Assembly: GCA_025358025.1 (NCBI GenBank)
Contig: JANYKW010000008.1
Span: 1-64,000, forward strand
Direction of reading: 5' to 3'
DNA from: Bacteroidia bacterium
Lineage (GTDB): Bacteria; Bacteroidota; Bacteroidia; Bacteroidales; Prolixibacteraceae
DNA: 64,000 nucleotides
The notes under the pieces were generated by a model. It worked only from the letters and a program-made list of their open reading frames with translations, was not told the DNA's origin and did no database searches. Made by a program: the position numbers and the translations under genes. This document shows, piece by piece, positions 1 through 58,000 of this stretch (positions within the stretch are counted from its first letter, which is position 1; every line of letters starts with the position of its first letter).

Positions 1-1713
1 TCGCGTCCAGTCGGCTTTGTATAGCATCCTTAAATCATTTACAACCTGCGATTGAACCAGGTCCGCCAGATCACGGCTGGCCCATTTGGATTGTCCATTT
101 GGGAAAGTATCTGCGCCAAAAGTGGTGTCATAGATGAGGAGTGTACCGATGATCGAACTGTCCTTTGTTGTCCCGGCATCGGTATGAAATCCCATCGACA
201 TGTCAACGGGAATTCCCATCCCTTTGGCGTGCGGCGCTTTGGTTGGTCCATTGGGATCACCCATCAGATAGTTGACAAACTCTCCCCGGCACATGTAATC
301 ATCCTTGTAATCTTCCATCTTGCTTTCACGCGATGCAAAAGCTGCTGCATCGCTTCCACGGTTCGAATAGTCGATTTTGGTCTGGTTGAGGCTGTATACA
401 AGTGAATCAGGAAAGCCGGCATACTGAAGATAGTATCTTGCTGCCTCCTGGTATCTGGGGCGCTGGCTTGAAAATGGTTTCCAAACAGCAGTGTCTGTTC
501 TCCATCCCTCTTTTTCCCTGATATCGAACAATTTTTTCAGTTGTTCCTCTTTCCCCCTGACAATATTTCCCATACCGCCGCCAAAACGTACAGCATCGGC
601 AGAGACCATCTTACCGGGTTCGGAGGATGCGTTGTCAAGTTCCACCATTCCTTTATCCGGATTTTTTCCCTTTTCAAACTTAAAGGTTCCCAGGTAGATC
701 CAGGTACCTCCGCCTATGGTCTGATTTACTGCAAATACGGTCTTTCCACCAGCATGGGTTACCGTATAGTGAGCATCTGTCACATTCTGATCGTCTTGCA
801 GATAAGACACATAAACGGCGAAATTTCCTGTTTTCGGAAATTCAGGTATATATTTAGCTACCGCATCAGCCTGGGATTTGGCAATTGTTGTTTTGGCGTG
901 ACCAAACTGGAAGGGATTTTCTCCATCAAACAGGAAGGGATACTTTAAAGCAAATCCCGATTTTGAAGACTGCTCCCATTTAGTCCCGGATTCCAGGTAT
1001 TCTGATCCATCTGATGATTTCTCTCCATCGACTATGATCTCCTTGGAACCCAGATCCCTTTCGCGTGGCAGCCAGATGGAAGCGCCTGAATTTTCGAGCA
1101 TCGGAGTCAGGTAGGGAACGACAAAACTGAGGGTCCATATATCTTCGACCGTGAGAAAATCACGCGCCCGCTGCCACTCCCAACGATCGAGTGTATTTTC
1201 GTAGTACCATCCATGACTCTGCCACAAGGTGATGTTCCGGTTATCAAGACCATTTGGAAAAAAAACATTTCTGGATTGATTTCTGACAATCTGCTTACTC
1301 CGTTCTTTTTGTACAGAAAGTCTGGATAAATCAATTTTTGCAGGTTCGGTGCGGTAGAAATTGGGAATTAGTTCGCTGATCTCCTTCCCGGCAGTACTTA
1401 TCGAAACATTGCTTTTACTGAATTTCCTGCCGAGAAGTTGTTTGTAATCGGTGTAGAACTGATGAACGTTGTCGGGGCGGAATGGAACATCCAAAAAGGT
1501 GGTTTTCATCTCCAGTTTCAGGGATGCTGCTTTGGGATCCATCTTCAGGGTATCGATTTTGAATTTAAAGGTCCTGCCTTCCGAGGTTTTCAAAGCAAAT
1601 TTTTGGGATGACTCCTTTGCCTTATTGTACAGGCGCTCGTACCTGTCAGCCCTTGTAACCTGGGTCGTCAACAGAAAAAACAGCAACAGGAATGCAAATT
1701 TTATATAACGCAT
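1..1713 (-). CDS. golvesin-domain 'xanthan lyase'/amidase-like exported protein, partial
   Basis: The frame is open from an ATG at 1711-1713 to the left edge, giving 571 codons of a longer protein (relatives are roughly 900-1000 residues as I recall). The N-terminus MRYIKFAFLLLFFLLTT is a signal peptide. Around residues 295-378 lies a golvesin/Xly CBD-like beta domain (IGGGTWIYLGTF, then SADAVRFGGG). Around residues 504-514 MSMGFHTDAG resembles the SLHAD metal-site strand of amidase_3-type N-acetylmuramoyl-L-alanine amidases, so an amidase-like peptide-stripping role is possible. Bacteroidota members are commonly labelled xanthan lyase on weak grounds. It is the last visible gene of a five-gene leftward run and starts 53 bp after its neighbour. 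The family call is fairly sure; the activity is inferred. Confidence 0.7.
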   Translation of the reverse strand, partial: MRYIKFAFLLLFFLLTTQVTRADRYERLYNKAKESSQKFALKTSEGRTFKFKIDTLKMDPKAASLKLEMKTTFLDVPFRPDNVHQFYTDYKQLLGRKFSKSNVSISTAGKEISELIPNFYRTEPAKIDLSRLSVQKERSKQIVRNQSRNVFFPNGLDNRNITLWQSHGWYYENTLDRWEWQRARDFLTVEDIWTLSFVVPYLTPMLENSGASIWLPRERDLGSKEIIVDGEKSSDGSEYLESGTKWEQSSKSGFALKYPFLFDGENPFQFGHAKTTIAKSQADAVAKYIPEFPKTGNFAVYVSYLQDDQNVTDAHYTVTHAGGKTVFAVNQTIGGGTWIYLGTFKFEKGKNPDKGMVELDNASSEPGKMVSADAVRFGGGMGNIVRGKEEQLKKLFDIREKEGWRTDTAVWKPFSSQRPRYQEAARYYLQYAGFPDSLVYSLNQTKIDYSNRGSDAAAFASRESKMEDYKDDYMCRGEFVNYLMGDPNGPTKAPHAKGMGIPVDMSMGFHTDAGTTKDSSIIGTLLIYDTTFGADTFPNGQSKWASRDLADLVQSQVVNDLRMLYKADWTR

Positions 1714-1766
1714 AGTTATTATTTTTTTTAATCCTTTAATCCAATTAATTATCCTCATAATCCAAA

Positions 1767-2885
1767 TCACACTTTGATAAATATTTTCTTTTTGAACAAA
1801 ACATAACCCAGCAACCAGAAAAGTATTACATGGGCAATAGCGTACAACAAAGACCCGTTCATCTCTCCTGCCACAGGAAGGAATAGCTCCTTGTAAATCC
1901 AGGTTGATCCACTCACAACAGTTCCGTCAGCAGCAGTAACATGGATCATACGTCCCAGAATCCTACCCCATAAACCGGAAGCGGCAAATATAAAGAGGGG
2001 ATTAACCCCAAAGACTACGAAAAAAGAGGTCCAGCGGGAACAACCTTTTATATCGATCAGCCAGATTAACCCTGCCATCCATAATGCTGCCATCCCGGCA
2101 GTAAAAAGTACATAGGAACTGGACCAAATTGGTTTGGAAATTGGAAAATAATTCCCCCAAAGCGCCCCAATGGATATCACCGCTATTCCAAAAATAACGA
2201 GCCGTAAAGGAACTTCCTTCTTTGGAATTTCTTTGATAAGAGCTCCGGAAAGATAGCCTATAAGTACCGTAACGATAGCAGGGAGGGTGCTGAACACTCC
2301 TTCAGGATCGAATGGGATGCCGAATCCTCTGTAGAGATGGTTTTCACCCAGTAGCGCAGAGTCAAAAGGAGCTGCAGGATTTCCGGAAAGTGAATAGGGG
2401 TCAGATCCTCCAAAATAGACCACCAATCCCCAGTATGCCAACAGGATGATTCCACCCAGCCAAGGCAAATATTTTCTGTTAACCGACAAAACAATCAATG
2501 CCGCGATACCATACGCCAAAGCGATACGTTGCAGTACACCCATGATTCTCAACTTTGAAAAATCGGCGCTCCACTGTGGAAATGAGTTCAGAAAGATACC
2601 GATGGCAAAGATGAGCAGGGTTCGTTTACCAATTTTCAGCAGTGATTCCCTGTTTAGGTGATTACCATATTTTGAGAAAGAGAAAAACATGGAAGCACCA
2701 ACCACAAAAAGAAAGAAGGGAAAGACCAGATCGGTAGGAGTACATCCCTGCCAGGCAGCATGCTCAAGAGGAGCATATATATGGGACCAGCTGCCAGGAT
2801 TGTTGACTAGTATCATCAGTGCAACAGTCATACCCCGAAGCACATCCAGTGCAAGGTATCTTTGGCTGCTTGTTTTTTGTTGCAT
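1767..2885 (-). CDS. MurT/NagX-like inner-membrane protein (COG4299, HGSNAT-like)
   Basis: This 372-residue polytopic protein has about ten hydrophobic segments. Its N-terminal block (ALDVLRGMTVALMILVNNPG, then HAAWQGCTPTDLVFPFFLF) is the signature of the COG4299/heparan-alpha-glucosaminide N-acetyltransferase family. Members include NagX of chitin loci and, as I recall, the MurT MurNAc transporter of Tannerella forsythia. It may therefore import MurNAc or GlcNAc, or re-acetylate glucosamine at the inner membrane. It starts 7 bp after the GHL10 gene, inside an operon of cell-wall-type hydrolases that lies divergent to a sugar kinase and murQ. That setting favours the MurT-like role. Transport versus acetyl transfer cannot be decided from sequence. 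Confidence 0.75.
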   Translation of the reverse strand: MQQKTSSQRYLALDVLRGMTVALMILVNNPGSWSHIYAPLEHAAWQGCTPTDLVFPFFLFVVGASMFFSFSKYGNHLNRESLLKIGKRTLLIFAIGIFLNSFPQWSADFSKLRIMGVLQRIALAYGIAALIVLSVNRKYLPWLGGIILLAYWGLVVYFGGSDPYSLSGNPAAPFDSALLGENHLYRGFGIPFDPEGVFSTLPAIVTVLIGYLSGALIKEIPKKEVPLRLVIFGIAVISIGALWGNYFPISKPIWSSSYVLFTAGMAALWMAGLIWLIDIKGCSRWTSFFVVFGVNPLFIFAASGLWGRILGRMIHVTAADGTVVSGSTWIYKELFLPVAGEMNGSLLYAIAHVILFWLLGYVLFKKKIFIKV

Positions 2886-2892
2886 TTATCTG

Positions 2893-4401
2893 TTATTTTT
2901 TGAATTTTACAGGATTGCTCTCTGTATGTGTCGGACTCAATGCAGTTACTACATAGCGGTATTTAGCCGGATTGTAGCCTGCTGCAGCAGGAAGGAGAAG
3001 TTTCTGCCAGGAGGTTACGGATAGGATCTTGTCAGGATTGTTAATTTTAGCCCGCTGAAGTTTCTTAAAGCAATAAATAACAAACAGGTTGTTGTTTTCA
3101 CTCTTTTGCCACGATAATACAATGTCGTTCCCCTCCTTTTGTATAATAGGTTCTCCGGGTGGCTCAGGAATTACAGGTGTTGCCATTGGATTGACAGGTG
3201 TAAGGGAAGGATAGCGGTAGTGCTCCCTCAGAAGATTATCTTTCAGCGAAAGGGGATTCTTCTTAAGAAACTTGGCACTATAATGCATACTTCCTTTAAT
3301 CTCCGGTATGGTCCGGTTCAGTGAAAGTTGCTTAATAATTTCATCTGAGGTTCTCCACGCCTGATCCTTTGATTCGGGATCGATCTGATAAAGGGCATGG
3401 CCAATGTAGATGGGACATTTATAACTGTGTTCTGCCCACCATTTCGCCAGAATCGCATAATCGGCAACCTCTTTGCCTATGAACCAGTAAAGTTGCGGTG
3501 TGACATAATCGATCCATTTTTCACTTTGCCATTTGAGAATATTGGCATATAAATCATCGTAGTTTGTGACTCCGGCCCTGGTTTCTGATCCATTTGGATC
3601 ATCTTTTTTGTTGCGCCAAACACCGAAAGGTGAAATGCCAAATTCAACAGATGGATTGATTGATTTTATACTGTCGTGCAGTTGTTTTATAATAAGATCT
3701 ACATTGTTTCTTCTCCAATCCTCTTTGTTTTGAGGATAAAAATTCTGACCAAATAATCTGAAGGAGTTGTCATCAGGAAATTCCGCCCCTCCGATTTTGT
3801 AGGGATAAAAGTAGTCGTCCATATGGATGGCATCAATGTCATATCTTCTCACGAGATCGCTCACTACATTTGCAACGTGGTTGCGCACTTCGGGGATTCC
3901 GGGATCAAAATATTTTTTCTTTCCATAGGTGAGCATCCACTCTGGATGGGTGTTTGAAACATGGTTTGGTGCTGAAGTGGCCTTGTCGATATTCTGAACT
4001 GCCCGGTAGGGGTTGAGCCAGACGTGAATGTCCAATCCTCGCTTGCGACATTCGTCGATCGTAAACTGCAAAGGGTCATACCAGGGACTGGGGGCAACAC
4101 CCTGTTTGCCGGTCAGCCATTCCGACCAGGGTTCAAGCTCGGAAGCATAAAGCGCATCAGCATCCGGTCTGATCTGAAAAACTACAGTATTCATGTTGTA
4201 TGCTTTGACCGAATCCAGCAATTCTACCATTTCTGCTTTCTGTTCTTCTGTCGACAAGAAAGGAGAAGATGGCCAGTCAATATTTTCTACTGTAGCAATC
4301 CAGACCGCCCGCATTTCCCGCTTTGGATAATTTTTGGCACTCAGAGAGACAGAAAGTCCTATAAATAATAGGAATACGATGGCATACTTCATTTTTTTCA
4401 T
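2893..4401 (-). CDS. GHL10 family glycosidase (DUF187; DigH/YngK-like)
   Basis: The protein has 502 residues with a signal peptide (MKKMKYAIVFLLFIGLSVSLSA). Residues 28 to about 370 form the GHL10 TIM barrel, shown by KREMRAVWIATVENIDWPSS, the strand VVFQIRPDADALYASELEPW, the block DIHVWLNPYRA, and IHMDDYFYPY with SPFGVWRN. The C-terminal ~100 residues look like a fibronectin III-type beta domain. The family includes E. coli DigH, which cuts peptidoglycan glycan strands already stripped of peptides, and Bacillus YngK. With an amidase-like neighbour and a MurNAc catabolic pair next door, cutting of denuded glycan is the natural hypothesis. Spacing of 18 bp from the upstream gene and 7 bp to the next supports one operon. 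The family assignment is firm; the substrate is inferred. Confidence 0.85.
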   Translation of the reverse strand: MKKMKYAIVFLLFIGLSVSLSAKNYPKREMRAVWIATVENIDWPSSPFLSTEEQKAEMVELLDSVKAYNMNTVVFQIRPDADALYASELEPWSEWLTGKQGVAPSPWYDPLQFTIDECRKRGLDIHVWLNPYRAVQNIDKATSAPNHVSNTHPEWMLTYGKKKYFDPGIPEVRNHVANVVSDLVRRYDIDAIHMDDYFYPYKIGGAEFPDDNSFRLFGQNFYPQNKEDWRRNNVDLIIKQLHDSIKSINPSVEFGISPFGVWRNKKDDPNGSETRAGVTNYDDLYANILKWQSEKWIDYVTPQLYWFIGKEVADYAILAKWWAEHSYKCPIYIGHALYQIDPESKDQAWRTSDEIIKQLSLNRTIPEIKGSMHYSAKFLKKNPLSLKDNLLREHYRYPSLTPVNPMATPVIPEPPGEPIIQKEGNDIVLSWQKSENNNLFVIYCFKKLQRAKINNPDKILSVTSWQKLLLPAAAGYNPAKYRYVVTALSPTHTESNPVKFKK

Positions 4402-4419
4402 TAGGTGATATAATTTATA

Positions 4420-5862
4420 TTATTGATAGGTAACATCCATGTGCCACTTCCATTTATCGAAAAAAAGATTTCCACCTTTCCATTCAACCTCTCCCCGCTG
4501 GAAATCGTAAGGTTCGCTTCGGAAATATTTTTTTGCTGGAGAAAGTGGTTTACTAAAATCATCATTAACAATCAGGCGATAAGCATCTATGCCGGTGATA
4601 TAGAAGTCACGAATTGCTGTATTTAAGTTATTTTGAAGTCCAAATGACTGATCCAGAGGGACCCAGCCGATACCTTCATACCAGACTTCACACCAGTCAT
4701 GCAGATTAACTTCTCCGGGGTGAAGCATCCAGCCACTTTGCCATTTAACCGGAATACCTACAGATCTGGCCAGTGTCATGAAGAGCATTGTTTGCATTCC
4801 ACAGTCTCCATGCCGCTGCTTCATCACGAACCCGGGTATATCAGGTATGATTGAGTACTCCAGGGCACTGGCCCAGGTGACAGAATCATTGATCCACTTA
4901 TATATTTTTATTACTTGAAGCAAAGGATTGGTCTCATTTCCTAAAATACTTTTGGCTAAGGATTTGATACTATCATTAAAAATAATTTGTGGAGCTCTTT
5001 CAGCAGTAAATTCCTTGTAAAGAGCGTTCTCTTTATGATAAGGAATGATCATCTCCGGTGTAAGCTGAAATGTTTGAGCATAGGAGGTAAATTCAAATTC
5101 AGTTTTGAAAATTGTTGGCTGATTTGCAACCGCAATTTTTTCGAGGTATATTGATCTTTGTAAATCAGTGGAGGGAGAGATGAGGTTTGCAGAAGGCTCA
5201 CTAGCTGTTAACTGAATATCTTTTTGCCTTAGATTGTTTTCCCTGGGGAATGGCATCCAGCAACGGATGGTATCTCCTGAAGGTATCGCGTTAGCCGATA
5301 CACTGATGGCATAGGCAAGCTTCATTCTGATGGGAATTGCCGGTTTCCCGGGTATTTCTGTTTTCTTCAGAACATCTGTGGAATGGGCTATTCTGAAAAG
5401 GGAAAGTGAATCAATCAGGGGGCCTTCCTTGTCTGCTCTTAATTTGGCATAGCCGGAGTCAAGAAGAAAAATATTTCTTACCGAATTCTTGAAATAGCAC
5501 TTTTTACCTTCGATCACCAGAAAATCAATTTTGCGTTCCTTTTCCAGACGGAGAAGTTCAATGTTGTTGGCTCTGGAATTATATTTTAACAGTCCTTGCA
5601 GGACATCATCTTCTGATAAAGTAAAATCAATTTTTATTCTGTAACAAATTTCAAGAATCGAGTCTGCTTTAGCCTGTTCTTTTGGAGAAAGACCGGATGA
5701 TTTTAAAATTTCAGCGGATATTTTCGTGGCTTTGGTCAGTTCCCCGTTTTTGAGCAGACTTTCAGCGAGAATTATGTTTGGTGGGGCTGGCTGAAATATG
5801 CACCCGGAAGTGGCTGCCAGAAGCAAAGCTGTAAGTAGGATATTTCTGATGATGACGATCAT
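4420..5862 (-). CDS. transglutaminase-like lipoprotein
   Basis: The protein has 480 residues. The N-terminus MIVIIRNILLTALLLAATSGC ends in a lipobox-like Cys, so it is probably a lipoprotein. The C-terminal part carries the papain-like transglutaminase-core triad: Cys near residue 353 in RHGDCGMQTMLFM, His near 389 in NLHDWCEVWYEG, and Asp near 404 in WVPLDQSFG. Residues 30-310 show no domain I recognise. Bacterial proteins of this fold are mostly peptidases or amidases rather than crosslinkers. Here, between a GH9-deacetylase fusion and a GHL10 glycosidase, it could trim peptide stems, which is inference. It starts 51 bp after the GH9 gene and ends 18 bp before the GHL10 start. Confidence 0.75.
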   Translation of the reverse strand: MIVIIRNILLTALLLAATSGCIFQPAPPNIILAESLLKNGELTKATKISAEILKSSGLSPKEQAKADSILEICYRIKIDFTLSEDDVLQGLLKYNSRANNIELLRLEKERKIDFLVIEGKKCYFKNSVRNIFLLDSGYAKLRADKEGPLIDSLSLFRIAHSTDVLKKTEIPGKPAIPIRMKLAYAISVSANAIPSGDTIRCWMPFPRENNLRQKDIQLTASEPSANLISPSTDLQRSIYLEKIAVANQPTIFKTEFEFTSYAQTFQLTPEMIIPYHKENALYKEFTAERAPQIIFNDSIKSLAKSILGNETNPLLQVIKIYKWINDSVTWASALEYSIIPDIPGFVMKQRHGDCGMQTMLFMTLARSVGIPVKWQSGWMLHPGEVNLHDWCEVWYEGIGWVPLDQSFGLQNNLNTAIRDFYITGIDAYRLIVNDDFSKPLSPAKKYFRSEPYDFQRGEVEWKGGNLFFDKWKWHMDVTYQ

Positions 5863-5913: not shown

Positions 5914-8400
5914 TTAGTCTCTTATTTCCTCCAGTTTGCAAAATTGGTACCCCTTATTCTTCAAAAATCCCTGCAATTCATCCAGATGATTATAAAATTT
6001 ATCAGTTCGTTGTGGAGAGGTACCAAGATGAATCAAAATGATTGCACCATTTAATCCATTGGGATCTGTGGCTTCAAAGAGTTTCAAGTCATTCATTATC
6101 TGCACTGATGACCTGTAATTTGCCATATCAGGTGTTGTATAGTCCACATTGGACCGGATGCCGGGCGTATAATTGATGGTCGTTAGACCCATCTGTCCTG
6201 CCCAGTTTACAACTTCGCTGTTGTACCATTCATAAGGAGGAAGAAAGAAACTCGCATGCCGGGATTTTATCCCAAACGCAAGCATTTCCTTGTAATTGGA
6301 TTGCAGGTCTTTTTCGAAACCGGTTCTGCTTACCAGCGTAGAGTCTCTTTTGTTCCAGTCTGCATAAAGTAGGTGATGGTCGGAATGTGCTGCCAGATAA
6401 TGTCCATCCGCAAGGAGTTGTTTAATGAGTTTTGAATTCTGTTTATTTCTGTAAAAATCACCGGTAAAAAAGAATGAACCTTTGGTGCCTGATTTCCTTA
6501 ATGAATTCGCTATTACAGAGCCTCCTTCTCCAAATTCGTGGGCAGAGAAGATCAGGTATATTTTTTTGTCGGAAGAAACCATCCTGACTATAGCTCCCTG
6601 GTTATCTATCAATGGCACCTTTGCAGTCAGCTGGTGGTCGGAAGACTCAAGCGAAGAGAGCAGGTAACTTAAACTGGCAGTTCCGTCCATGGTGGGCTCG
6701 TTGGTAGAATAATCCCCGTTGTCGTCGTGGTATACTGCGATTCCTCCCTGAAAGGGGGCATAAGTATCTGCTTTGGTAAGTTTAATACCAATCAGTGAAT
6801 TGTAAATCTGTCGATAAACAGGCCCGTCGACCAAACCTCCATAAGTAGTCTGTTTCATCCAATAAGTAATCGCTGAATGTGGATCCTCCGGATAATCACC
6901 GGTAGCCGGCAGGCCACAGATCATGGATGTGCCCCAGGGATTGCAGCCGAAGAGCCAATCTGTGAGCGACGTTTCAAGCTGTTCAAACTGGCGGTCTCCT
7001 GTGATCACCCGGTAAAGCTTTGCCTGGGTGGCAGCTGCCACAACCAGGTTGTTGGAACACCAGATAAATGGAATTCCGATCGGGAAAGGATCGTTGATGG
7101 AAGATTTTTGCAGGGAGATCAAACCTTGTTTCATGTATGACCGGAATTTTGTTGAAACAAGGCTATCCTGGGACTGGGAAAGTAAGGCATGTCCAAGATT
7201 GACAAATGGATAATATTGATAATGACGTGCACGGTGTAGTTCCATCCATGGAGTTACCTGCTCCAGTTCTCCCCATTTTGCAGCTGCTTTTTGATCTTCG
7301 TCAGAATGTGAAATTTGCGATAGCGTTACAGCTGCAAGTTCCATATCGTCAGCATAATTTTCCTCTTCATAAAAATAGGGAGAGACCACGCAGGCAGTCT
7401 GGCAAACACCCGGATCAGACTTGGCAAAGTCCCAGGCTTCTCTTGCTTTTTTCTCTAACTGAGCCGCAAAAGTAGGGTCCAACCGGTTAAATACCTCAGA
7501 TCCGAGGGCAAAAGAAGAGCTAAATTTGGCAGCTACAGAGGCAACGCCTGTTGTCCTGTTCTGATGTTTTCCACTACCCTGCGGTTTCCCGGTAGCGTAA
7601 TACACAGGCCTGTATTTCTTCCCAAGACCGTAAGAAACAGTATCCATCGTGGGGAGCCTGTAACTCCGGTGATCGCGGTCATCAGCAATTTGGTAATACA
7701 TTTCACCTTTCGTCGGATTCATTTTCAGCAACCATTCCAGTCCCCACCTTGCTTCATCCAGGATATCCGGAATCCCATTTGATCCAGGTAATCCATTTGA
7801 CATGTATTTGTCCATATATACGGATGGATTTTCTCTCCAGGAGAAAAGCATCTGATATACAGCATTGGCTGAAGTAAGTGTATATTGCAGATAGTCTGAT
7901 GCATCATGCCAGCCCCCGGTAACATCTAACCATTGACCTTCTTTTTGGGGATGATCCACAATAATCCCGTCAGAGGTATGACAGGAATCCTTCAGAAAGG
8001 GATTGTACCCGCAACGTTGCTGTCTCATATATTGAAGAATAAAGTCGGCAATCCCTTTATAAATGCCGGATGAAACCTTGAAAGAAGGAGAAATTGCATT
8101 GGAGGCCTCAAGATGGTATCCACCTGGGTGTATGACAGAAGAAAAATCAAGTTTGTATGCACTTCTCTTACCCCACTTTTCTCCTGCAGACAGAATGGGA
8201 ACTCCCTCAAAAATAATCTCTCCGGAGAGGTTGTCAACCAATTTGAATTTCTTTAATGTTACAGCTTCATCACTAAGGAATACTGCAATTTTTAGTCCTT
8301 CGGGAAGATAGCCCAGTTGATTGATCCGGATTACCTCATTCCCAAACGAGTGGAAAACCAAACAAATCATCAGCATCGATATGCTAAAAAATTTAATCAT
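5914..8400 (-). CDS. GH9 glycosidase fused to a polysaccharide deacetylase-like domain
   Basis: The 828-residue exported protein reads as signal peptide (1-20), cellulase N-terminal Ig-like domain (about 22-110; RINQLGYLPEGLKIAVFL), GH9 catalytic domain (about 118-585) and CE4/NodB-like domain (about 610-826). GH9 residues visible are the paired Asp in GGWHDASDYLQY near 165, the GCNPWGTSMICG block, and the general-acid Glu in YSTNEPTMDG near 566. The CE4 part keeps the metal-binding HSDHH near 671 and a PPY motif near 722, but its first motif reads FSAHEFGEGG where TFDDGP is usual. GH9 contains endoglucanases and also exo-beta-glucosaminidases, so an amino-sugar substrate is possible. It leads the leftward operon behind a good promoter. 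Domain calls are firm; the substrate is unknown. Confidence 0.85.
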   Translation of the reverse strand: MIKFFSISMLMICLVFHSFGNEVIRINQLGYLPEGLKIAVFLSDEAVTLKKFKLVDNLSGEIIFEGVPILSAGEKWGKRSAYKLDFSSVIHPGGYHLEASNAISPSFKVSSGIYKGIADFILQYMRQQRCGYNPFLKDSCHTSDGIIVDHPQKEGQWLDVTGGWHDASDYLQYTLTSANAVYQMLFSWRENPSVYMDKYMSNGLPGSNGIPDILDEARWGLEWLLKMNPTKGEMYYQIADDRDHRSYRLPTMDTVSYGLGKKYRPVYYATGKPQGSGKHQNRTTGVASVAAKFSSSFALGSEVFNRLDPTFAAQLEKKAREAWDFAKSDPGVCQTACVVSPYFYEEENYADDMELAAVTLSQISHSDEDQKAAAKWGELEQVTPWMELHRARHYQYYPFVNLGHALLSQSQDSLVSTKFRSYMKQGLISLQKSSINDPFPIGIPFIWCSNNLVVAAATQAKLYRVITGDRQFEQLETSLTDWLFGCNPWGTSMICGLPATGDYPEDPHSAITYWMKQTTYGGLVDGPVYRQIYNSLIGIKLTKADTYAPFQGGIAVYHDDNGDYSTNEPTMDGTASLSYLLSSLESSDHQLTAKVPLIDNQGAIVRMVSSDKKIYLIFSAHEFGEGGSVIANSLRKSGTKGSFFFTGDFYRNKQNSKLIKQLLADGHYLAAHSDHHLLYADWNKRDSTLVSRTGFEKDLQSNYKEMLAFGIKSRHASFFLPPYEWYNSEVVNWAGQMGLTTINYTPGIRSNVDYTTPDMANYRSSVQIMNDLKLFEATDPNGLNGAIILIHLGTSPQRTDKFYNHLDELQGFLKNKGYQFCKLEEIRD

Positions 8401-8441
8401 CGCTATGAGTTTAATAAAGTTGTCCTGGTTATAATTAACTT

Positions 8442-8471
8442 CAAAAATAGCCCAAATAATGAAAATCGCAA
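8442..8471 (-). promoter_or_regulatory. Bacteroidota promoter for the GH9-led operon
   Basis: Read on the minus strand, TTG at 8471-8469 is followed 19 bp later by TATTTTTG at 8449-8442, an exact TAnnTTTG -7 box at standard spacing. It lies about 40 bp before the GH9 start codon. The rest of the 297-bp divergent gap (8401-8697) is AT-rich. I see no second clear promoter for the kinase gene, although a degenerate TATCTTTA is present near 8520. Confidence 0.6.
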
Positions 8472-8697
8472 TATTGGTAATACATGTTATATAATACCTG
8501 TAATATATTGTTAAAATATTTTATCTTTACAATTAGAAAAGGAAATGCCTGGACGTTTTCCTGTGAATTTAGCTAGATTTTGGATAAGATGTTAGTGTAT
8601 TCTTTTTCTGAATCTTACAGAACCAGGATGTAACCTTCCGGAAGTATGAACCAAAGCAGAAAGTAACTGATTTACTGATATCTTAAAAGGTGTAATT

Positions 8698-9543
8698 GTG
8701 ATATTAATTGCCGACAGTGGATCTACCAAATGTGCATGGAAACTGATTTCCCATACCGGAGAGATGCAATCCTTACTTACCTCTGGAATAAATCCTTTTT
8801 TCCGTACTTCGGAATCTATTTATGAGGAATTACTTTCGGGACTATTTCCTTTTACCACCGAACCGGTTGAGAAAATCTTTTTTTACGGTACAGGAATTAT
8901 CAATGAGGAAAAGGCGGGAGTCATCCGCAGCGCTCTGCGGCAATTTTACCCATCGGCTAATATAGCGCTTCACAGTGATGTGCTGGCAGCTTCCCGTTCC
9001 CTTTTTGGCAACAAGCCTGGAATTGCATGCATCCTGGGTACAGGATCAAATGCGTGTCTTTACAACGGCACTGCCTTATCCAAAGGAATTTCACCCCTCG
9101 GGTTTATTCTTGGAGATGAGGGCAGTGGGGCAGTACTGGGAAAAAAATTGCTGGGTGATTACTTCAAGGAGGTAATGCCGGAAGCAGTCAGAAAAAAATT
9201 TGAAGCAAAATACCATCTATCCAGAGACGAGGCACTTCAAAAAGTATATAAAACAGAGAAACCAAATTTTTTCCTGGCCTCTTTTGCCCCATTTCTTTCG
9301 GAAGAATTATCTGAAAACTATTGCTTTCATCTTGTACGTAATAGCCTGATCGAATTTTTTGAACGCAATGTGACCAAGCTACCGGATTACAACTCTTATT
9401 CTATTGGATTTGTTGGATCTGTTGCCTTCCACTTCAAAGGGATTGTAGAGGAAGTTTGTTCAATTTATCAGATGAATTGTATCTCCATTCAGCAGGAGCC
9501 GATGCTGGGTCTTGTTAATTATCATCTGAATCATAACACTTAA
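8698..9543 (+). CDS. BadF/BadG-type amino-sugar kinase (MurK-like MurNAc/GlcNAc kinase)
   Basis: This 281-residue ASKHA-fold kinase has the phosphate-1 loop at its very N-terminus (ADSGSTKCAW), a second glycine-rich loop GTGSNACLYNG near residue 117 and GDEGSGAVLGKKLLG near 140. These match the BadF/BadG/BcrA/BcrD ATPase family that includes eukaryotic N-acetylglucosamine kinase and Tannerella MurK. The start is a GTG preceded by AAAAGG about 7 bp upstream; an in-frame ATG at this site is absent. The next gene is murQ, 10 bp downstream, so MurNAc phosphorylation to MurNAc-6-phosphate is the simplest role; GlcNAc is an alternative or second substrate. It is divergent from the leftward hydrolase operon. 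Confidence 0.8.
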   Translation: MILIADSGSTKCAWKLISHTGEMQSLLTSGINPFFRTSESIYEELLSGLFPFTTEPVEKIFFYGTGIINEEKAGVIRSALRQFYPSANIALHSDVLAASRSLFGNKPGIACILGTGSNACLYNGTALSKGISPLGFILGDEGSGAVLGKKLLGDYFKEVMPEAVRKKFEAKYHLSRDEALQKVYKTEKPNFFLASFAPFLSEELSENYCFHLVRNSLIEFFERNVTKLPDYNSYSIGFVGSVAFHFKGIVEEVCSIYQMNCISIQQEPMLGLVNYHLNHNT

Positions 9544-9553
9544 GAGAAACAAA

Positions 9554-10372
9554 ATGAATACCGTAAGCATTACCGAACAGGATTCGTTGTATAGTGATTT
9601 GGAAAAGATGTCGGTAAAAGAGTTACTTCAGAAGATCCACGAAGAGGATAAAAAGGTGTTGCCTGCCATTGGTGCGGTGATGCCTCAGATTGAGGCACTT
9701 GTTGAGCAGGTTTTTATCAGGATGAAAAAGGGAGGACGTCTTTTTTATATGGGAGCAGGTACCAGCGGGCGTTTGGGCATTCTGGATGCCTCAGAAATCC
9801 CGCCGACTTTTGGCGTTGGGTATGGATTGGTAATCGGAATGATTGCCGGTGGAGACAAAGCTATCCGCAAAGCAGTGGAAGCTGCAGAAGATGATGAAGA
9901 GATGGGATGGAATGAGTTAAAAAAGATGGAGATCAATGAGATGGATACGGTAGTAGGAATTGCCGCTTCCGGCAGGACACCTTATGTGGTTGGTGCAGTG
10001 AAAAGAGCGAGGGAACATAAAATCCTAACTGCGTGCATCGTCAACAATCCCGGAAGCATCCTTGCTTTGAACGTAGATATTGCCATCGAAGCAATTGTGG
10101 GTCCGGAATTCGTTACCGGCAGTACCCGCATGAAATCAGGCACTTCTCAAAAAATGATCCTAAATATGATTACGACCTCGGTGATGATTAAGCTGGGGCG
10201 GGTCAAAGGGAATAAAATGGTCAACATGCAACTGACTAATCAGAAGCTGATCCACAGGGGAACACGTATGATTGTCAGTGAATTGGGTTACAGTGAGGAT
10301 AAAGCAAAAAGATTGCTCCTGCTGCACGGTTCAGTTAATGAAGTACTCAATGCCGCCAGGACAGAAAAATGA
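9554..10372 (+). CDS. murQ: N-acetylmuramic acid 6-phosphate etherase
   Basis: MurQ removes the D-lactyl ether from cytoplasmic MurNAc-6-phosphate, giving GlcNAc-6-phosphate. The 272-residue protein carries the SIS-domain signature MGAGTSGRLGILDASE at residues 66-81, with Glu81 matching the catalytic Glu of the family. Further conserved blocks are GIAASGRTPYVVGA, the Asn-Asn-Pro region, and GSTRMKSGTSQKMILNM. Length is slightly below the usual ~300 residues because the C-terminal UBA-like helices are short. It sits 10 bp behind the MurK-like kinase and most likely shares its transcript. The gene ends at a perfect palindromic terminator shared with sucD. Confidence 0.95.
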   Translation: MNTVSITEQDSLYSDLEKMSVKELLQKIHEEDKKVLPAIGAVMPQIEALVEQVFIRMKKGGRLFYMGAGTSGRLGILDASEIPPTFGVGYGLVIGMIAGGDKAIRKAVEAAEDDEEMGWNELKKMEINEMDTVVGIAASGRTPYVVGAVKRAREHKILTACIVNNPGSILALNVDIAIEAIVGPEFVTGSTRMKSGTSQKMILNMITTSVMIKLGRVKGNKMVNMQLTNQKLIHRGTRMIVSELGYSEDKAKRLLLLHGSVNEVLNAARTEK

Positions 10373-29286: not shown

Positions 29287-32022
29287 ATGGCGAAACGACT
29301 GTTTATTGTAATTACTGTCCTTCTGATTGCCGGGCTTGCAGCGGGATGGTATTTCTTTGCCAAAGAATCGAGGTATTTAGGTACTTCTCCACTTAAAGCG
29401 GTACCGGTACAAACTTCTATTTTTATTAGGATCGGAAATCTGGGTGCATTTGCCGAAAAATCAGTCAAAAATAGCTGTTGGCAAAACGCACGTATTTTTA
29501 GCAAAATATCGGAATTGTATGGTGATTTAGCGTTGGTAGATTCTTTGATGCTTTGTAACAAAGAATATGAAAACGTGCTTATACACAGAGAGTTATTTGT
29601 AGTACCTACGGAAGATTCCAGACTTTATCTGCTTAAGATTGGCAGCATCACGGAAAAAAACAGCATCAATTCATTGATCAGGGACTTCTTTCTCTCCAAA
29701 AATATTGTCGCAACGACCGAAAAGTATAAAGATGCCACTTTGCAACAATATGAAATAGTAAGGAATAATGAATCCAGGAGGATTTTGATTACTTTTTACA
29801 GAGGGCTTCTGATGGTTGGTGATGCGTGGTCTCATCTGATAACAGCCATTGACCAGATGGATCAGCCTTCACTTCTTGAAGATTCAGACTATCTCCGTAT
29901 CAATAAGAATACTGCGGAAAACACGGATCTCAATATTTTCATCAACCACAAAACTCTTCCGGTATTCTTAAACCGCTTTTGTACAGATTCTCTGGCCAGA
30001 GGTATCCTTTTGCCAAATTATGCTAAATGGACTGAGATTGATGTCTCCCTGAAGGATAGTCAATTGTTGGTCAATGGTTTTTCAGTTACAGATACTACGA
30101 TTGCATGTTATCTGGATGTTTTTCGCCATCAAAAACCACTTGTGGGTTCAATTATACGGAGTATGCCGTCAACCACAACCTTTTTTATGGCTCAAAATCT
30201 TTCAAAGCCGGTTCAGTATTTTGAAGATTATGTCTCCTACCTTCGCATAAATGATAAAATTAATAGTTACAACGATCAGATTTCAACTGTTTCCAAAGAA
30301 CTGAATCTAAATATCGGTCAATATTTGAATGGCTACTGGACAGGTGAAGCAGCAACCGTCTTCACTAACCAGAATATGTCAGACAGATCAGACAATCGAT
30401 TTTTCCTTATGAAGGTGGTCTCCAAAGGCAGTGATCCGCTGGTGATGGCAATAAAAAAGTGGTCGACCGACCACAAAATGAATGAGCTGGATGATGAATT
30501 ATCTGATTCCGACAGAGACAATTTCTGGAGAGTGCCCACAGATTATTTTGGCAGGTTGATCGGAGATTTTTATTTTGGCTCAGTAGAAACTAAATGGATG
30601 ACGGTTGGTGAAGGATTTATTTTGATGGGATCAACACCCGGATCACTTAAAAGATACCTGAATTTGCTTAGAAACAGAGAACTTTTGCAGGAAAATCCAT
30701 CATACATGAAATCCTCCTCCGGATTGGCCCGATCTTCCAACTTTTATATGTGGTGTTCTCCCGGGCAGTCCTTGCCATTTTTCGAATCTTTGATCAAACC
30801 AATGCTTTATCGGCCATTAAATGAGCATATTAATGCCCTTAAAAAGTTTGAGAACTTCTCATGGCAATGGGGTTACGAAAATGGTGTTATTTACAATACA
30901 GCTTCGCTTAAAGTTAATCCGGATGCCAACCAGAATGAGATTCCATTCTGGCATTATCCGCTCAGAACGAAAATAAGAGATCATCCGGTTTTTGTTTCAT
31001 ATTCCAAAAAAAATAACCTGAGAGAGCTTGTATTTCAGGATTTTGACAATTACCTGATTGACCTCGACAAGGATGGTACAGAACGCTGGAAGATCCGCCT
31101 GGAAGGAGCAATCATGGGGCAAATTAAGGTAATTGAAACCAATAAAAGGGATGAATTTCACCTTTTATTTAATACCAGGCTTGCTATTCACCGGATAGAC
31201 AGGAATGGAGATGAAGTAAAGTCTTTTCCGGTACGCCTAAAATCTGCTGCTACCAATGAAGTCGCAGTATTTGATTACGATGGAAAGAAAGATTACAGGT
31301 ACATTGTCGCCTGCAGTGATCACAAGATTTACAATTTTGATAAATCAGGGAAGATAATTTCAGGATGGCAACCAAAAGCTGTCCAGGGTGTCGCCGGGTT
31401 TGCTGCCCATCATTACCGGATTGGAGCCAAAGATTATATTGTATTGTCTGATCAGTTGCATACCTATATTCTTGACAGGCAAGGGAAGGAGCGAATCAAA
31501 ATAAAGGATGAATTTGTTCGTTCAAGGAACGATATCAGCCTGATCAAAACAAATGAAGGTCGAAACTGGATGGTCTCAAGCGATGATCGGGGAAAAATCA
31601 GGCTTCTTGGTTTTGATGGATCGACAAAAAAAATTACAGCCGGGAATTTTTCATCTGATCACTATTTTCTTCCTGTCGACTTCTCCGGGGACGGCAACAT
31701 CAATTTCCTGTTCGTCGACAGGCAAAAGCTCAGTCTGTATGATTTTTCAGGTAAAATATTATTTTCAAATGAACTGAATATTTCTGTTGACCAGAAGCCA
31801 AAGTTGTTTCAAATAGGAGATGAAAAATTTATTGAATTGAATTCAGCAACTGAGAACCTGACGATCCTGATAAAAAAAGATGGCTCAATATTTGATAGGT
31901 TTATACCCGGAAAATTCTGTTTGCCGGCTATCGGAACTTTCGATGCCAGCAATAGTATTATAAATAAGCTGGGATGTACCCCGGATGGATTTTTATCGAA
32001 CTTTCAAATGATCATAAAATGA
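29287..32022 (+). CDS. large membrane-anchored protein of unknown function
   Basis: The protein is 911 residues with one N-terminal hydrophobic helix (about 5-24, FIVITVLLIAGLAAGWYFF), so most of it is periplasmic. I recognise no catalytic family; the N-terminal ~550 residues resemble large DUF3352-type proteins only loosely. Residues from about 570 contain repeated strand-turn units such as YLIDLDKDGTERWKI, YNFDKSGKIISGW, YILDRQGKERIKI and SLYDFSGKILFS, which look like a beta-propeller. The next gene, a lipoprotein, starts inside its stop codon (ATGA), and an outer-membrane barrel follows. The three probably form one envelope module. Confidence 0.6.
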   Translation: MAKRLFIVITVLLIAGLAAGWYFFAKESRYLGTSPLKAVPVQTSIFIRIGNLGAFAEKSVKNSCWQNARIFSKISELYGDLALVDSLMLCNKEYENVLIHRELFVVPTEDSRLYLLKIGSITEKNSINSLIRDFFLSKNIVATTEKYKDATLQQYEIVRNNESRRILITFYRGLLMVGDAWSHLITAIDQMDQPSLLEDSDYLRINKNTAENTDLNIFINHKTLPVFLNRFCTDSLARGILLPNYAKWTEIDVSLKDSQLLVNGFSVTDTTIACYLDVFRHQKPLVGSIIRSMPSTTTFFMAQNLSKPVQYFEDYVSYLRINDKINSYNDQISTVSKELNLNIGQYLNGYWTGEAATVFTNQNMSDRSDNRFFLMKVVSKGSDPLVMAIKKWSTDHKMNELDDELSDSDRDNFWRVPTDYFGRLIGDFYFGSVETKWMTVGEGFILMGSTPGSLKRYLNLLRNRELLQENPSYMKSSSGLARSSNFYMWCSPGQSLPFFESLIKPMLYRPLNEHINALKKFENFSWQWGYENGVIYNTASLKVNPDANQNEIPFWHYPLRTKIRDHPVFVSYSKKNNLRELVFQDFDNYLIDLDKDGTERWKIRLEGAIMGQIKVIETNKRDEFHLLFNTRLAIHRIDRNGDEVKSFPVRLKSAATNEVAVFDYDGKKDYRYIVACSDHKIYNFDKSGKIISGWQPKAVQGVAGFAAHHYRIGAKDYIVLSDQLHTYILDRQGKERIKIKDEFVRSRNDISLIKTNEGRNWMVSSDDRGKIRLLGFDGSTKKITAGNFSSDHYFLPVDFSGDGNINFLFVDRQKLSLYDFSGKILFSNELNISVDQKPKLFQIGDEKFIELNSATENLTILIKKDGSIFDRFIPGKFCLPAIGTFDASNSIINKLGCTPDGFLSNFQMIIK

Positions 32023-44192: not shown

Positions 44193-45746
44193 TTATTTTT
44201 TGGTTATTCTAACCATGACGACACCGTGAGCAGGGACATTCGCAATAAACTTCTGTCCGAAAACGCCAAGGTCTTTTTGATGCCATAAATCACGAACGAT
44301 TTGTTTGTCAGATATTTGAAGTTCTTTCCAGTCAACCGAGATTGTTACTTCATTTTTGCCGCGGTTGAACAAGCCGACTGCTTTTGATCCGTCGGCCATG
44401 TTTTTAACCATGACAAAGTTGGTGTCGGGACGTTTAATCACAAGCGCGCATTCGCCCAGCGGATCCTGATCTACCTCTATGACATCGGGATTGCACAGCA
44501 CGTTCAGGGTGAATTCATCCAGTTTGGACATATCACCACTGTAGATTAACGGAGCGGCCATGAGGCACCATAAGGACATGTAAGCGTACTGCATTGCAGC
44601 AGGCATCGGCGCAAGTTCGGGTATACCCATTTTGGAGGCATTGCCAATCCACCCTATCTGAATGTAATCCGGGTCGTTCCACTCTCCAGGTTTTGAAAAT
44701 GCCTTGTATTCACTGTTTTTCAGAGCAACTTCGAAGATTCTGTCGAGTTCGAAACCCAAATCACCGGAGGTTCGCCAGCAGTGGCCACCTACTTCCCCCC
44801 CCCATTTCCATACATCACCCATGCCATACTGACAGAGATTGAATAGCATATCGCGATCCATTGATTTCAAAATAGTTCCCATTTGCCGGAATGGTTTCTG
44901 AAAGGCTTCCAGGCTTTTGTCATTCCCCGCTATCTTTCCGTAGGAACACCAGTCGTATTTGAGAAAATCAAATCCCCATGCAGCAAACAGGCGTGCATCC
45001 TGTTCTTCATGTTGCCAGGCACCTGTGAAACCACCACAGGTCAACGTGCCGGGTGAAGTATATATTCCTGCTTTCAGGCCTTTGTCGTGTATGTAGCCGG
45101 TAAGTGCTTTCATATCCGGAAAGTAGGTATTGGGAAGGATATTTCCCTGGTCATCTCTCAGCGGACCAACCCTTTTGGGGTCATTATTTTTCGGAGCATT
45201 CATCCAGCAATCATCTATGTTTACATAATCATAGCCAACATCAGCCATGCCGCTTTTGATCATAACATCAGCAGCTTCCCGAACCATCTTATCTGTAATC
45301 CGGTCGTAGTGGGCATACCAGTGGTTCCATCCCATAGGAGGTGTCAGTGCCAGCTTGCCGGATGCAATAATTTTTAGTTCCCTGGAGTCTTTGCCCTTGG
45401 GATTTTTGGCTTTTATCGTCAGATCATAGACTCCTTTCTCAGGAGTTTTTCCAGAGATTATACCGGTGGAAGGATCAAGTTTAAGTGTTGCAGGTAATCC
45501 CTTGACAGTAAAAGTGATCGGACGATCACCCTGGCAGGGAATCCGGAAAAGAAATGGCTTTCCGGGAGTGCATCCGTACACCAGCGGTCCATTGAGACGT
45601 GGAGTGGATTTAGGAGCAGGGGTATAGATCTCCATATTCTCCGGCGAAGCGGGCTGGCTCTTGCCTGAACCCAGCGTATTAGTTGGAGTGAGAAATACTG
45701 CCATTGTAAAGATGTATACAAGGCCAAAAGAGAATGATTTTTTCAT
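44193..45746 (-). CDS. GH27 alpha-galactosidase with N-terminal Ig-like domain
   Basis: The 517-residue exported protein has a signal peptide, then a putative Ig-like He_PIG/NEW1 region (about 45-135; FRIPCQGDRPITFTVKGLPA, LKLDPSTGIISGKTP), then the GH27 barrel from LTPPMGWNHWYAHYDRITDK. The nucleophile Asp is in FLKYDWCSYG and the acid/base Asp in RTSGDLGFEL. It should release alpha-linked galactose from polysaccharide side chains. It is the last gene of a leftward operon (PQQ-like, MFS, GH2, GH27) and starts 29 bp after the GH2. Confidence 0.93.
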   Translation of the reverse strand: MKKSFSFGLVYIFTMAVFLTPTNTLGSGKSQPASPENMEIYTPAPKSTPRLNGPLVYGCTPGKPFLFRIPCQGDRPITFTVKGLPATLKLDPSTGIISGKTPEKGVYDLTIKAKNPKGKDSRELKIIASGKLALTPPMGWNHWYAHYDRITDKMVREAADVMIKSGMADVGYDYVNIDDCWMNAPKNNDPKRVGPLRDDQGNILPNTYFPDMKALTGYIHDKGLKAGIYTSPGTLTCGGFTGAWQHEEQDARLFAAWGFDFLKYDWCSYGKIAGNDKSLEAFQKPFRQMGTILKSMDRDMLFNLCQYGMGDVWKWGGEVGGHCWRTSGDLGFELDRIFEVALKNSEYKAFSKPGEWNDPDYIQIGWIGNASKMGIPELAPMPAAMQYAYMSLWCLMAAPLIYSGDMSKLDEFTLNVLCNPDVIEVDQDPLGECALVIKRPDTNFVMVKNMADGSKAVGLFNRGKNEVTISVDWKELQISDKQIVRDLWHQKDLGVFGQKFIANVPAHGVVMVRITKK

Positions 45747-45775
45747 TTTTCAGAATTAATAATTGTAAGTTGATG

Positions 45776-48616: not shown

Positions 48617-48661
48617 GGGAGGGCTGATAAAATTTATAGTATCAAAGGCGTATATTTTATA

Positions 48662-50056: not shown

Positions 50057-50073
50057 ACGAATAATATTGAATA

Positions 50074-51420: not shown

Positions 51421-51476
51421 GGTGGTGTTTTTTGATAGTTTAAAGATAGTTTGATCCTGAGTCAACCTATAGACAC

Positions 51477-51484
51477 CAAATATA
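51477..51484 (-). promoter_or_regulatory. -7 box of the PQQ-MFS-GH2-GH27 operon
   Basis: TATATTTG on the minus strand (51484-51477) is an exact -7 match 57 bp before the first gene. The -33 partner at standard spacing is not clear. Confidence 0.4.
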
Positions 51485-51524
51485 TCAAAACGTTTAAACA
51501 TGAGGAAATTGAAGGCCAAATTTG

Positions 51525-51532
51525 TACCTTTG
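51525..51532 (+). promoter_or_regulatory. -7 box towards the double-SGNH esterase gene
   Basis: TACCTTTG at 51525-51532 is an exact -7 match on the plus strand; a TTG lies 13 bp upstream, which is short. The predicted leader of about 100 nt contains a 17-codon open frame starting at 51551 that I could not assign. Confidence 0.35.
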
Positions 51533-51638
51533 AATGGTAAAAGTGTAGAAATGGACAATAACCTGATTAAATTGGAGTCTATATGCTGGTACGCAAAGGA
51601 TTAGACAATTGTTGGGATGACTCAAAACAGTTGAAACC

Positions 51639-54199: not shown

Positions 54200-58000
<3,801 letters not shown>

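Follow-up and report, generated by a model that had tools for sequence, protein, structure and literature searches.

In a 64,000-nucleotide stretch of DNA from a Bacteroidia bacterium of the Prolixibacteraceae (assembly GCA_025358025.1, contig JANYKW010000008.1, positions 1 to 64,000; hereafter the window), we analysed a gene encoding a putatively exported protein in which a catalytic domain of glycoside hydrolase family 9 (GH9) is followed by a C-terminal domain resembling the deacetylases of carbohydrate esterase family 4 (CE4). Throughout its family, this CE4-like domain, abbreviated DAC in the context of the GH9 fusion protein, lacks the motif-1 Asp pair and the motif-3 Arg of CE4 enzymes and carries an invariant Glu in motif 3. 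The gene lies next to genes of muramic acid and muropeptide metabolism, and in the window's bacterial family the protein very probably acts on the glycan of peptidoglycan. We tentatively propose, with slightly less than even confidence, that it is an exported peptidoglycan-salvage enzyme combining a rebuilt NodB-fold deacetylase with a GH9 domain.

Results

Fold and active site of the CE4-like domain

The fusion gene is an open reading frame (ORF) of 828 codons with an ATG start and no internal stops, and it is the single match in its own genome. Pfam identifies Polysacc_deac_1 at residues 611-741 (E 1e-9, 38.6 bits, cut-off 23.1). A structure model of the domain reached a predicted local distance difference test (pLDDT) score of 91.5, and its best structure matches were CE4-fold proteins with Z about 22-24: 4m1b (Ba0150; Z 23.8, 2.0 Å, 195 residues), the N-acetylglucosamine (GlcNAc) deacetylase Bc1960 (4l1g; 22.9), BA3943 (22.1) and PdaA (21.9), the last of which was also the best sequence match in the PDB (E 1.3e-5). 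The preliminary description, made from the DNA sequence, had left the deacetylase fold to be checked by structure prediction, and the model bears it out. The predicted NodB (beta/alpha) barrel, or CE4 fold, is well supported, and better so than catalytic activity, because the top match 4m1b is described as catalytically inert and possibly derived from N-acetylmuramic acid (MurNAc) deacetylases (PMC10967932).

We used MAFFT to align 16 members of the family with 21 ordinary CE4 proteins. The latter, picked from weaker profile matches, represent 21 genomes of the phylum by one protein each, the window's genome among them. Their TFDDGP is set against IFSAHE of the domain, with no gap in the column of the Asp pair. 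Asp-Asp and the motif-3 Arg are present in 21/21 ordinary proteins. Family counts were made on 96 unique sequences including that of the window, obtained from 138 ORFs after sequences shorter than 190 residues had been discarded and those that agree over the first 200 collapsed into one. The base Asp is replaced by Ser619 and the metal Asp by Ala620, and neither Asp occurs in any family member (position 619: Ser 52, Thr 43, Ala 1; position 620: Ala 53, Gly 41, Ser 2). The motif-3 Arg of RPPYG is likewise replaced in every sequence (Leu 72, Met 12, Ile 11, Val 1), and the Gly of the same motif is an invariant Glu724 (PPYE). Among the positions counted, H672, H676, D698, E724, D753, Y762, H791, G793 and R798 are all invariant, and L789 of motif 5 (LxH) is kept in 92 of the 96.

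The preliminary description had therefore read motif 1 correctly: FSAHEFGEGG stands in place of TFDD, the catalytic base Asp is gone, and the alignment offers no normal Asp-Asp motif in its stead (0/96 at motif 1). HSDHH (residues 672-676) and PPY (721-723) are kept, as it had stated. Its placement of His and Glu at the altered site holds only in part, as His621 and Glu622 do lie near motif 1, but they take the places of the Gly and Pro found just after the Asp pair in ordinary CE4 proteins and not those of the Asp residues themselves. The loss of the motif-3 Arg, the gain of Glu724 and the peptidoglycan-salvage setting had been missed.

Positions 621/622 read HE in 48 sequences, HD in 17, DE in 15, GD in 6, DS and DT in 2 each, and HN, DD, DG, DH, DR and AD once each. 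In 95/96 sequences one of these two positions is an acid, and if position 625 is counted as well the figure is 96/96, the HN sequence having Asp at 625 instead. When the columns were left out of tree building, the resulting tree required a minimum of ten exchanges between His and Asp at position 621, a pattern that would be expected of a metal ligand. The different metal site suggested earlier is plausible in the light of these exchanges, but Glu724 may be at least as good a ligand candidate. To judge from the conserved residues, the active site appears rebuilt, not decayed. We do not class the domain as a member of CE4, because two defining features, the motif-1 Asp pair and the motif-3 Arg, are absent, and a plain CE4 annotation was rejected on this ground; the domain may well work like a CE4 enzyme.

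Distribution and fusion states

We searched 395 genomes from the phylum with a profile of the domain. Matches below E 1e-80 were obtained in 41 of them, counting the genome of the window; those listed after them had E 1.2e-11 and weaker, and the 21 proteins fetched from this weaker group were ordinary CE4 proteins. By this profile, the CE4-like domain is a discrete family. A hand count over the domain-bearing genomes, with one (G173) left out, gave 23 in which the domain is fused to GH9, 8 in which GH9 is encoded by an adjoining gene and 9 in which the two lie apart. Separate adjoining genes for GH9 and the domain are seen at L024, L026, L028 and other loci. The full-length fusion is present in 63 of 140 genomes of the window's bacterial family, in 64 copies, so the coupling to GH9 in one chain, already seen in the preliminary description, is real and widespread. 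In 22 of the 96 unique sequences, the domain is a separate short ORF. In genus g23 it is fused to (L063, L064) or adjoins (L065, L066) the amidase-like protein of the gene cluster described below.

The GH9 domain

D166, D169 and E568, whose roles we assign from GH9 enzymology, are invariant in 110/110 unique GH9 relatives. PHxR is a GH9 signature; its His is kept in 110/110 relatives and its Arg is missing from all of them, while the aligned GH9 structures 3x17 and 5u2o have PHHR. The domain adopts the (alpha/alpha)6 fold in the model and matches GH9 structures at Z 25-32. Structures of GH9 exo-glucosaminidases share 15-19% identity with it and rank below endoglucanases. In the GH9 exo-glucosaminidase subgroup, long alpha1-alpha2 and alpha9-alpha10 loops close off the subsites beyond -1. 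By our own helix numbering, these loops span some 45 and 14 residues in the full-length model (pLDDT 78); the corresponding loops of the exo-enzyme VC0615, which is described as having equivalents of the GH9 catalytic residues, are given as 51 and 39 residues (PMC6096475). We did not place the domain in the exo-glucosaminidase subgroup, because endoglucanase structures match better and the loop lengths do not decide the matter.

The reading as a plant-polysaccharide cellulase was also set aside, with no cellulose or xyloglucan gene among the 7 other window proteins scanned with Pfam; a GH26 gene lies near one relative outside the window's bacterial family (L010). The segment QIADDRDHRSYRLP at residues 237-250, located in a long loop after helix 212-226 that is partly of low confidence in the full-length model, contains the conserved acidic and basic stretch ADDRDH. 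As a guess, the carboxylate of the lactyl group in muramic acid could be bound here.

The gene neighbourhood points to peptidoglycan

Downstream of the fusion gene, four genes follow closely on the same strand, and a kinase gene and murQ are divergent from it (Table 1). The NagX-like protein matches NF046061 NagX with E 1.1e-41 and 143 bits, under the cut-off of 480. The amidase-like protein and the corresponding portion of L064 are 43% identical (E 2e-119); Amidase_3 matches among the amidase-like proteins range from E 1.5e-5 to 0.07, below cut-off. A scan of positions 8200-8900 gave one promoter-like site, fewer than in shuffles, and one terminator-like site within the kinase gene.

The cluster continues elsewhere. 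At the end of contig C70 of the window's genome (L170), genes for an amidase-like protein, a GT2 protein, a DUF4922 protein, SpoIID and an AmpG-like transporter are found, and in genome G030 (L172) the whole order is contiguous: MurQ-kinase, then divergently GH9-DAC, transglutaminase, GHL10, NagX, amidase, GT2, DUF4922, SpoIID and AmpG. Genome G024 (L171) has the same order until its contig ends inside a gene. In other genera (L069 and L074), the order is GT2-DUF4922-SpoIID-GH9-DAC-AmpG, with an amidase-like gene in L074 only. SpoIID/LytB scores above the NCBIfam cut-off (TIGR02669, 165 bits vs 83), and the top model of the transporter is AmpG TIGR00901 (E 5e-50, 170 bits vs a cut-off of 350).

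Within the window's bacterial family, SpoIID occurs in 112/140 genomes, with one match per genome listed. Of the 69 genomes that have both SpoIID and the GH9(-DAC) gene, 38, from 8 of 11 genera, carry the two no more than 15 kb apart, against about 0.4 expected by random placement. A cluster gene adjoins all 29 short-flank loci, which are best-scoring matches and not a random sample, and linkage to SpoIID or a neighbour gene is found in 62/73 genomes. Across the 395 genomes of the phylum, MurQ is present in 41/41 DAC-positive vs 238/354 DAC-negative genomes (Fisher p 3e-7), and in family f18 DAC is present in 7/15 MurQ-positive vs 0/10 MurQ-negative genomes (one-sided p 0.013, counted by eye). 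The genomes are related, and we count this co-occurrence as weak support. Co-occurrence with NamZ is uninformative, NamZ being present in 379/395 genomes. The stepwise processing of one glycan proposed in the preliminary description fits these data; it had named no glycan, and the neighbourhood indicates peptidoglycan.

Several arrangements in relatives are recorded here in their own right. L063 (6004-9900) and L064 (2343-6197) encode proteins of about 1040 residues joining the deacetylase-like domain to a Golvesin_C/Amidase_3-like protein. At L067 (5625-7561), a separate deacetylase-like gene stands beside a GNAT acetyltransferase (two matched stretches), between the DUF4922 and AmpG-like genes, which places deacetylase and acetyltransferase adjacent within the same cluster. 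A calcineurin-like phosphoesterase fused to a BamB-type propeller is encoded beside GH9/DAC at L121 (8478-10340) and L123 (5657-7528), and between NamZ and GH9/DAC at L024 (3193-5109). L124 (9113-11023) holds a 637-residue frame with the deacetylase-like domain and an N-terminal part without identification.

Table 1 Coordinates of the fusion gene, its domains and motifs, and its neighbours in the window
Feature	Position	Strand	Basis
Whole gene: signal peptide, CelD_N immunoglobulin (Ig) domain, GH9 and CE4-like domain	5914..8400	-	ORF and Pfam; signal peptide judged by eye
CelD_N Ig-like domain, residues 22-101	8098..8337	-	Pfam PF02927, E 8.7e-17
GH9 catalytic domain, residues 114-581	6658..8061	-	Pfam PF00759, E 5.5e-72
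GH9 catalytic Asp pair D166-A-S-D169	7894..7905	-	Kept in 110/110 unique relatives
GH9 segment QIADDRDHRSYRLP, residues 237-250	7651..7692	-	Q237, D240, D241, R242, D243, H244 invariant in 110/110
Altered GH9 PHxR signature: PHSA, residues 507-510	6871..6882	-	His508 in 110/110; Arg at 510 in 0/110
GH9 catalytic acid Glu568 (TNEPTMDG)	6697..6699	-	Kept in 110/110 unique relatives
CE4/NodB-fold domain, residues 598-828	5917..6609	-	Structure model and fold matches
Altered motif 1 FSAHEFGEGG, residues 618-627	6520..6549	-	Alignment and family counts
Motif 2 HSDHH, residues 672-676; predicted metal His pair H672, H676	6373..6387	-	Both in 96/96
Motif 3 LPPYEW, residues 720-725; PPY = 721-723; Arg lost, Glu724 gained	6226..6243	-	E724 in 96/96
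Asp753, candidate motif-4 Asp	6142..6144	-	96/96; correspondence uncertain, region aligns with gaps
His791, motif 5 (LIH)	6028..6030	-	96/96
Transglutaminase-core protein, 51 bp downstream of the fusion gene	4420..5862	-	PF01841, E 4.9e-17
GHL10 glycoside hydrolase, 18 bp gap	2893..4401	-	PF02638, E 2.4e-79
NagX/HGSNAT-like membrane N-acetyltransferase, 7 bp gap	1767..2885	-	PF07786, E 1.2e-7, above cut-off
Amidase-like protein (Golvesin_C/Amidase_3 family), cut by contig end, open-ended ORF	1..1770	-	Similarity to L064
NagK/MurK-like kinase (BadF family), divergent	8698..9543	+	NF046058 E 1.2e-5, PF01869 E 7e-4, both below cut-off
MurQ, N-acetylmuramic acid 6-phosphate etherase, divergent	9554..10372	+	NF003915, E 1.9e-107, above cut-off

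Discussion

Proposed mechanism

We take GHL10 to be the family of E. coli DigH. DigH is described as acting on denuded strands (PMC12288456). In the pathway that we propose, the amidase would remove the peptides, and SpoIID and GHL10 would cut the strands. DAC would deacetylate the amino sugar, and GH9 would then hydrolyse a bond that it had previously not accepted. The NagX-like protein would restore the acetyl group on free glucosamine (GlcN), and the sugar would then go on to the kinase; MurNAc-6-phosphate would go to MurQ, and kinase and MurQ would feed the sugars into metabolism. Within DAC, His672 and His676 would bind the metal together with His/Asp621 or Glu622 as third ligand, Glu724, a Gly in CE4, would take over as general base from the lost Asp-Arg pair, and His791 and Asp753 would be retained as the acid pair. 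The C-terminal domain is probably catalytic, as its residue conservation suggests.

The order of the two steps draws on VC0615, which is described as cleaving (GlcN)2 and beta-glucosides and not the 4-methylumbelliferyl glycoside 4MU-GlcNAc (PMC6096475); therefore, deacetylation would let GH9 cut the bond. We prefer deacetylation before cleavage because the release of free GlcN would give the operon's GlcN acetyltransferase a role. That the protein works in this order, with GlcN as an intermediate, is a possibility to which we give rather less than even confidence.

We know of no GH9 enzyme for which action on peptidoglycan has been demonstrated. Neither a GH9-CE4 fusion nor a GH9 enzyme in peptidoglycan recycling appeared among the papers listed by searches of the open-access PMC literature. 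The broadest form of the proposal is that this is the first peptidoglycan-acting GH9, that the same chain carries a NodB deacetylase whose catalytic site is new (two His, an acid of shifting position, and a Glu base where Asp-Arg would stand), and that the protein gives Bacteroidota a deacetylate, cleave and re-acetylate route of muropeptide-sugar salvage parallel to NagZ/NamZ; in this form we regard it as rather doubtful. If it is true, GH9, mainly known as a cellulase family, would have a bacterial cell-wall branch, and proteins of that branch now named cellulases would need renaming. A CE4-fold deacetylase would work without Asp-Asp-Arg, which would test how far an active site can be rebuilt, and the glucosamine-acetyltransferase-like gene within a peptidoglycan-salvage operon would be explained.

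Evidence against the proposal and alternative readings

A number of findings weigh against the proposed salvage enzyme. The GH9 domain is closer to endoglucanases than to GH9 glucosaminidases. The NagX, kinase, AmpG and Amidase_3 assignments lie under NCBIfam or Pfam cut-offs. Where DAC is unlinked or stands with the amidase (14 genomes compared, G173 not included, and G382 excluded as its GH9 match is its own fused copy), 6 genomes have a close GH9 relative (E <1e-130) and 8 have none; therefore, the deacetylase and GH9 steps are not obligately coupled. Conversely, GH9 occurs without a DAC match in G046 and G137, where all candidates were scored, and in G063 and G098, where 7/17 and 7/8 were. 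In genus g2, SpoIID lies within 15 kb in 0/18 genomes, the neighbours of the gene there being MurQ and the kinase, and the 11 of 73 genomes of the bacterial family that remain are not SpoIID-linked, MurQ not having been checked in them. Outside the family, a cluster homologue is present in 7/40 windows (up to 20 kb, 39 genomes, no random-window control) and MurQ or NamZ is near the gene in 2/40 genomes, both of one genus; the neighbours include an amidase-like protein (L140), a GH18 protein (L135) and many unrelated genes. Linkage being this weak, the cluster setting cannot be assumed for all Bacteroidota.

Two further points, the absence of base Asp, metal Asp and motif-3 Arg from 96/96 family members and the fact that two of the top structural matches are called pseudoenzymes (the inert Ba0150 as described in PMC10967932, and BA3943 per its title), favour an alternative in which the domain is itself a pseudoenzyme with a CE4 fold that binds an amino-sugar glycan for the GH9 or amidase-like partner without catalysis. 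We consider this less likely than the salvage enzyme, but it is a serious alternative and the strongest of those considered. Eight polar residues are invariant throughout the family, including the metal His pair, the motif-5 His and the new Glu, and an acid is retained at 621/622 even though its position shifts. The existence of the domain as a separate short ORF, and its presence in the 8 genomes without a close GH9, also speak against this reading.

The domain could instead hydrolyse another bond in the manner of PuuE, for example by O-deacetylation or at a muropeptide amide. The PuuE allantoinase is a NodB-fold enzyme that works without metal. It is described as lacking both motif-1 Asp residues and keeping motifs 4 and 5 (PMC10967932). 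The missing Asp pair is shared with our domain, whose model also matches the PuuE structure 3cl6 in fold (Z 16.6, 2.5 Å over 195 residues). However, it ranks under the ordinary CE4 deacetylases, and the second metal His, lost in PuuE, is kept here (H676, 96/96), which makes this reading quite unlikely.

More improbable still is a substrate other than peptidoglycan, such as chitin, a chito-oligosaccharide or another amino-sugar polymer, with the peptidoglycan neighbours supplying shared GlcNAc catabolism. Exo-acting GH9 glucosaminidases have been proposed to act in chitin catabolism, as described in PMC6096475, the GH18 gene stands beside one relative outside the bacterial family, and the linkage to peptidoglycan genes is weak there. 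Yet MurQ, SpoIID, amidase-like and AmpG-like genes belong to muramic acid and muropeptide metabolism and are unneeded for chitin, and the domain is also found fused to an amidase-like protein. Finally, an ordinary CE4 enzyme with a misaligned Asp pair, or a sequencing error, can practically be dismissed, given the gap-free column against 21 CE4 proteins and the same change in 96/96 members, and no point in its favour was found.

Comparison with known systems

The domain shares with the CE4/NodB deacetylases PdaA, PgdA and Bc1960 the fold (Z 20-23), the metal His pair, the Pro-Pro of motif 3 and the motif-5 His; it differs from them by the missing motif-1 Asp and motif-3 Arg, the invariant Glu724 and the fusion to GH9. 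A changed metal ligand has a precedent in MdaA, an anhydro-MurNAc deacetylase of Agrobacterium that is described as retaining activity although Cys stands in for the metal Asp (PMC10838918). Like the protein proposed here, MdaA is an exported peptidoglycan deacetylase that keeps the two His residues; in that account, its replacement is Asp to Cys, its substrates are chain ends, and no glycosidase fusion is described. E. coli SddA (YibQ) is reported to deacetylate GlcNAc of denuded strands (PMC12440217), the substrate that we propose, giving GlcN-anhydroMurNAc after a lytic transglycosylase; as presented there, it differs in belonging to PF04748, in its place in the envC operon and in its tie to cell division.

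The GH9 enzymes PBPRA0520, VC0615 and VP2484 resemble the fusion protein in the GH9 fold, the N-terminal Ig-like domain and the Asp/Asp/Glu residues, and provide a precedent for cleavage of GlcN glycosides. They differ in sequence, at the low identity given above, and in the alpha9-alpha10 blocking loop, which our model does not show; the window's GH9 lacks the PHxR Arg, and its state in these three enzymes was not compared.

The closest parallel to the gene order comes from Tannerella forsythia, whose lytB we take to be SpoIID and whose ybbC we take to be NamZ. Its genes Tanf_08345-08385 (xanthan lyase-gtf-gtf-lytB-ampG-ybbC-murTKQ) are described as one transcript (PMC5388701; also PMC7670621), and its AmpG as having worked in a reporter assay (PMC5388701). 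This core arrangement is similar to that of the amidase-like, GT2, DUF4922, SpoIID and AmpG-like genes at L170-L172 and at L069 and L074, of which L074 alone has the amidase-like gene; as a guess from gene order, the xanthan lyase (Tanf_08345) would belong to the amidase-like family and the second gtf would be the DUF4922 gene. In contrast, no GH9-deacetylase gene appears in the operon as described in these sources, and the window's family adds GH9-DAC, transglutaminase, GHL10 and NagX-like genes.

Other features of the window

Further along the window, a 911-residue ORF at 29287-32022 (+) has no Pfam match at E 1e-5 and lies upstream of a gene for a DUF5723 protein. A sugar-use cluster at 44193-51558 (-) encodes an alpha-galactosidase (Melibiase_2), a GH2 protein, a sugar transporter of the major facilitator superfamily and a PQQ_2 beta-propeller protein. 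The gene at 54200-57988 (-) encodes a LacZ-type GH2 beta-galactosidase with a LamG domain (Laminin_G_3) at residues 644-782, inserted between the TIM barrel and LacZ domain 4.

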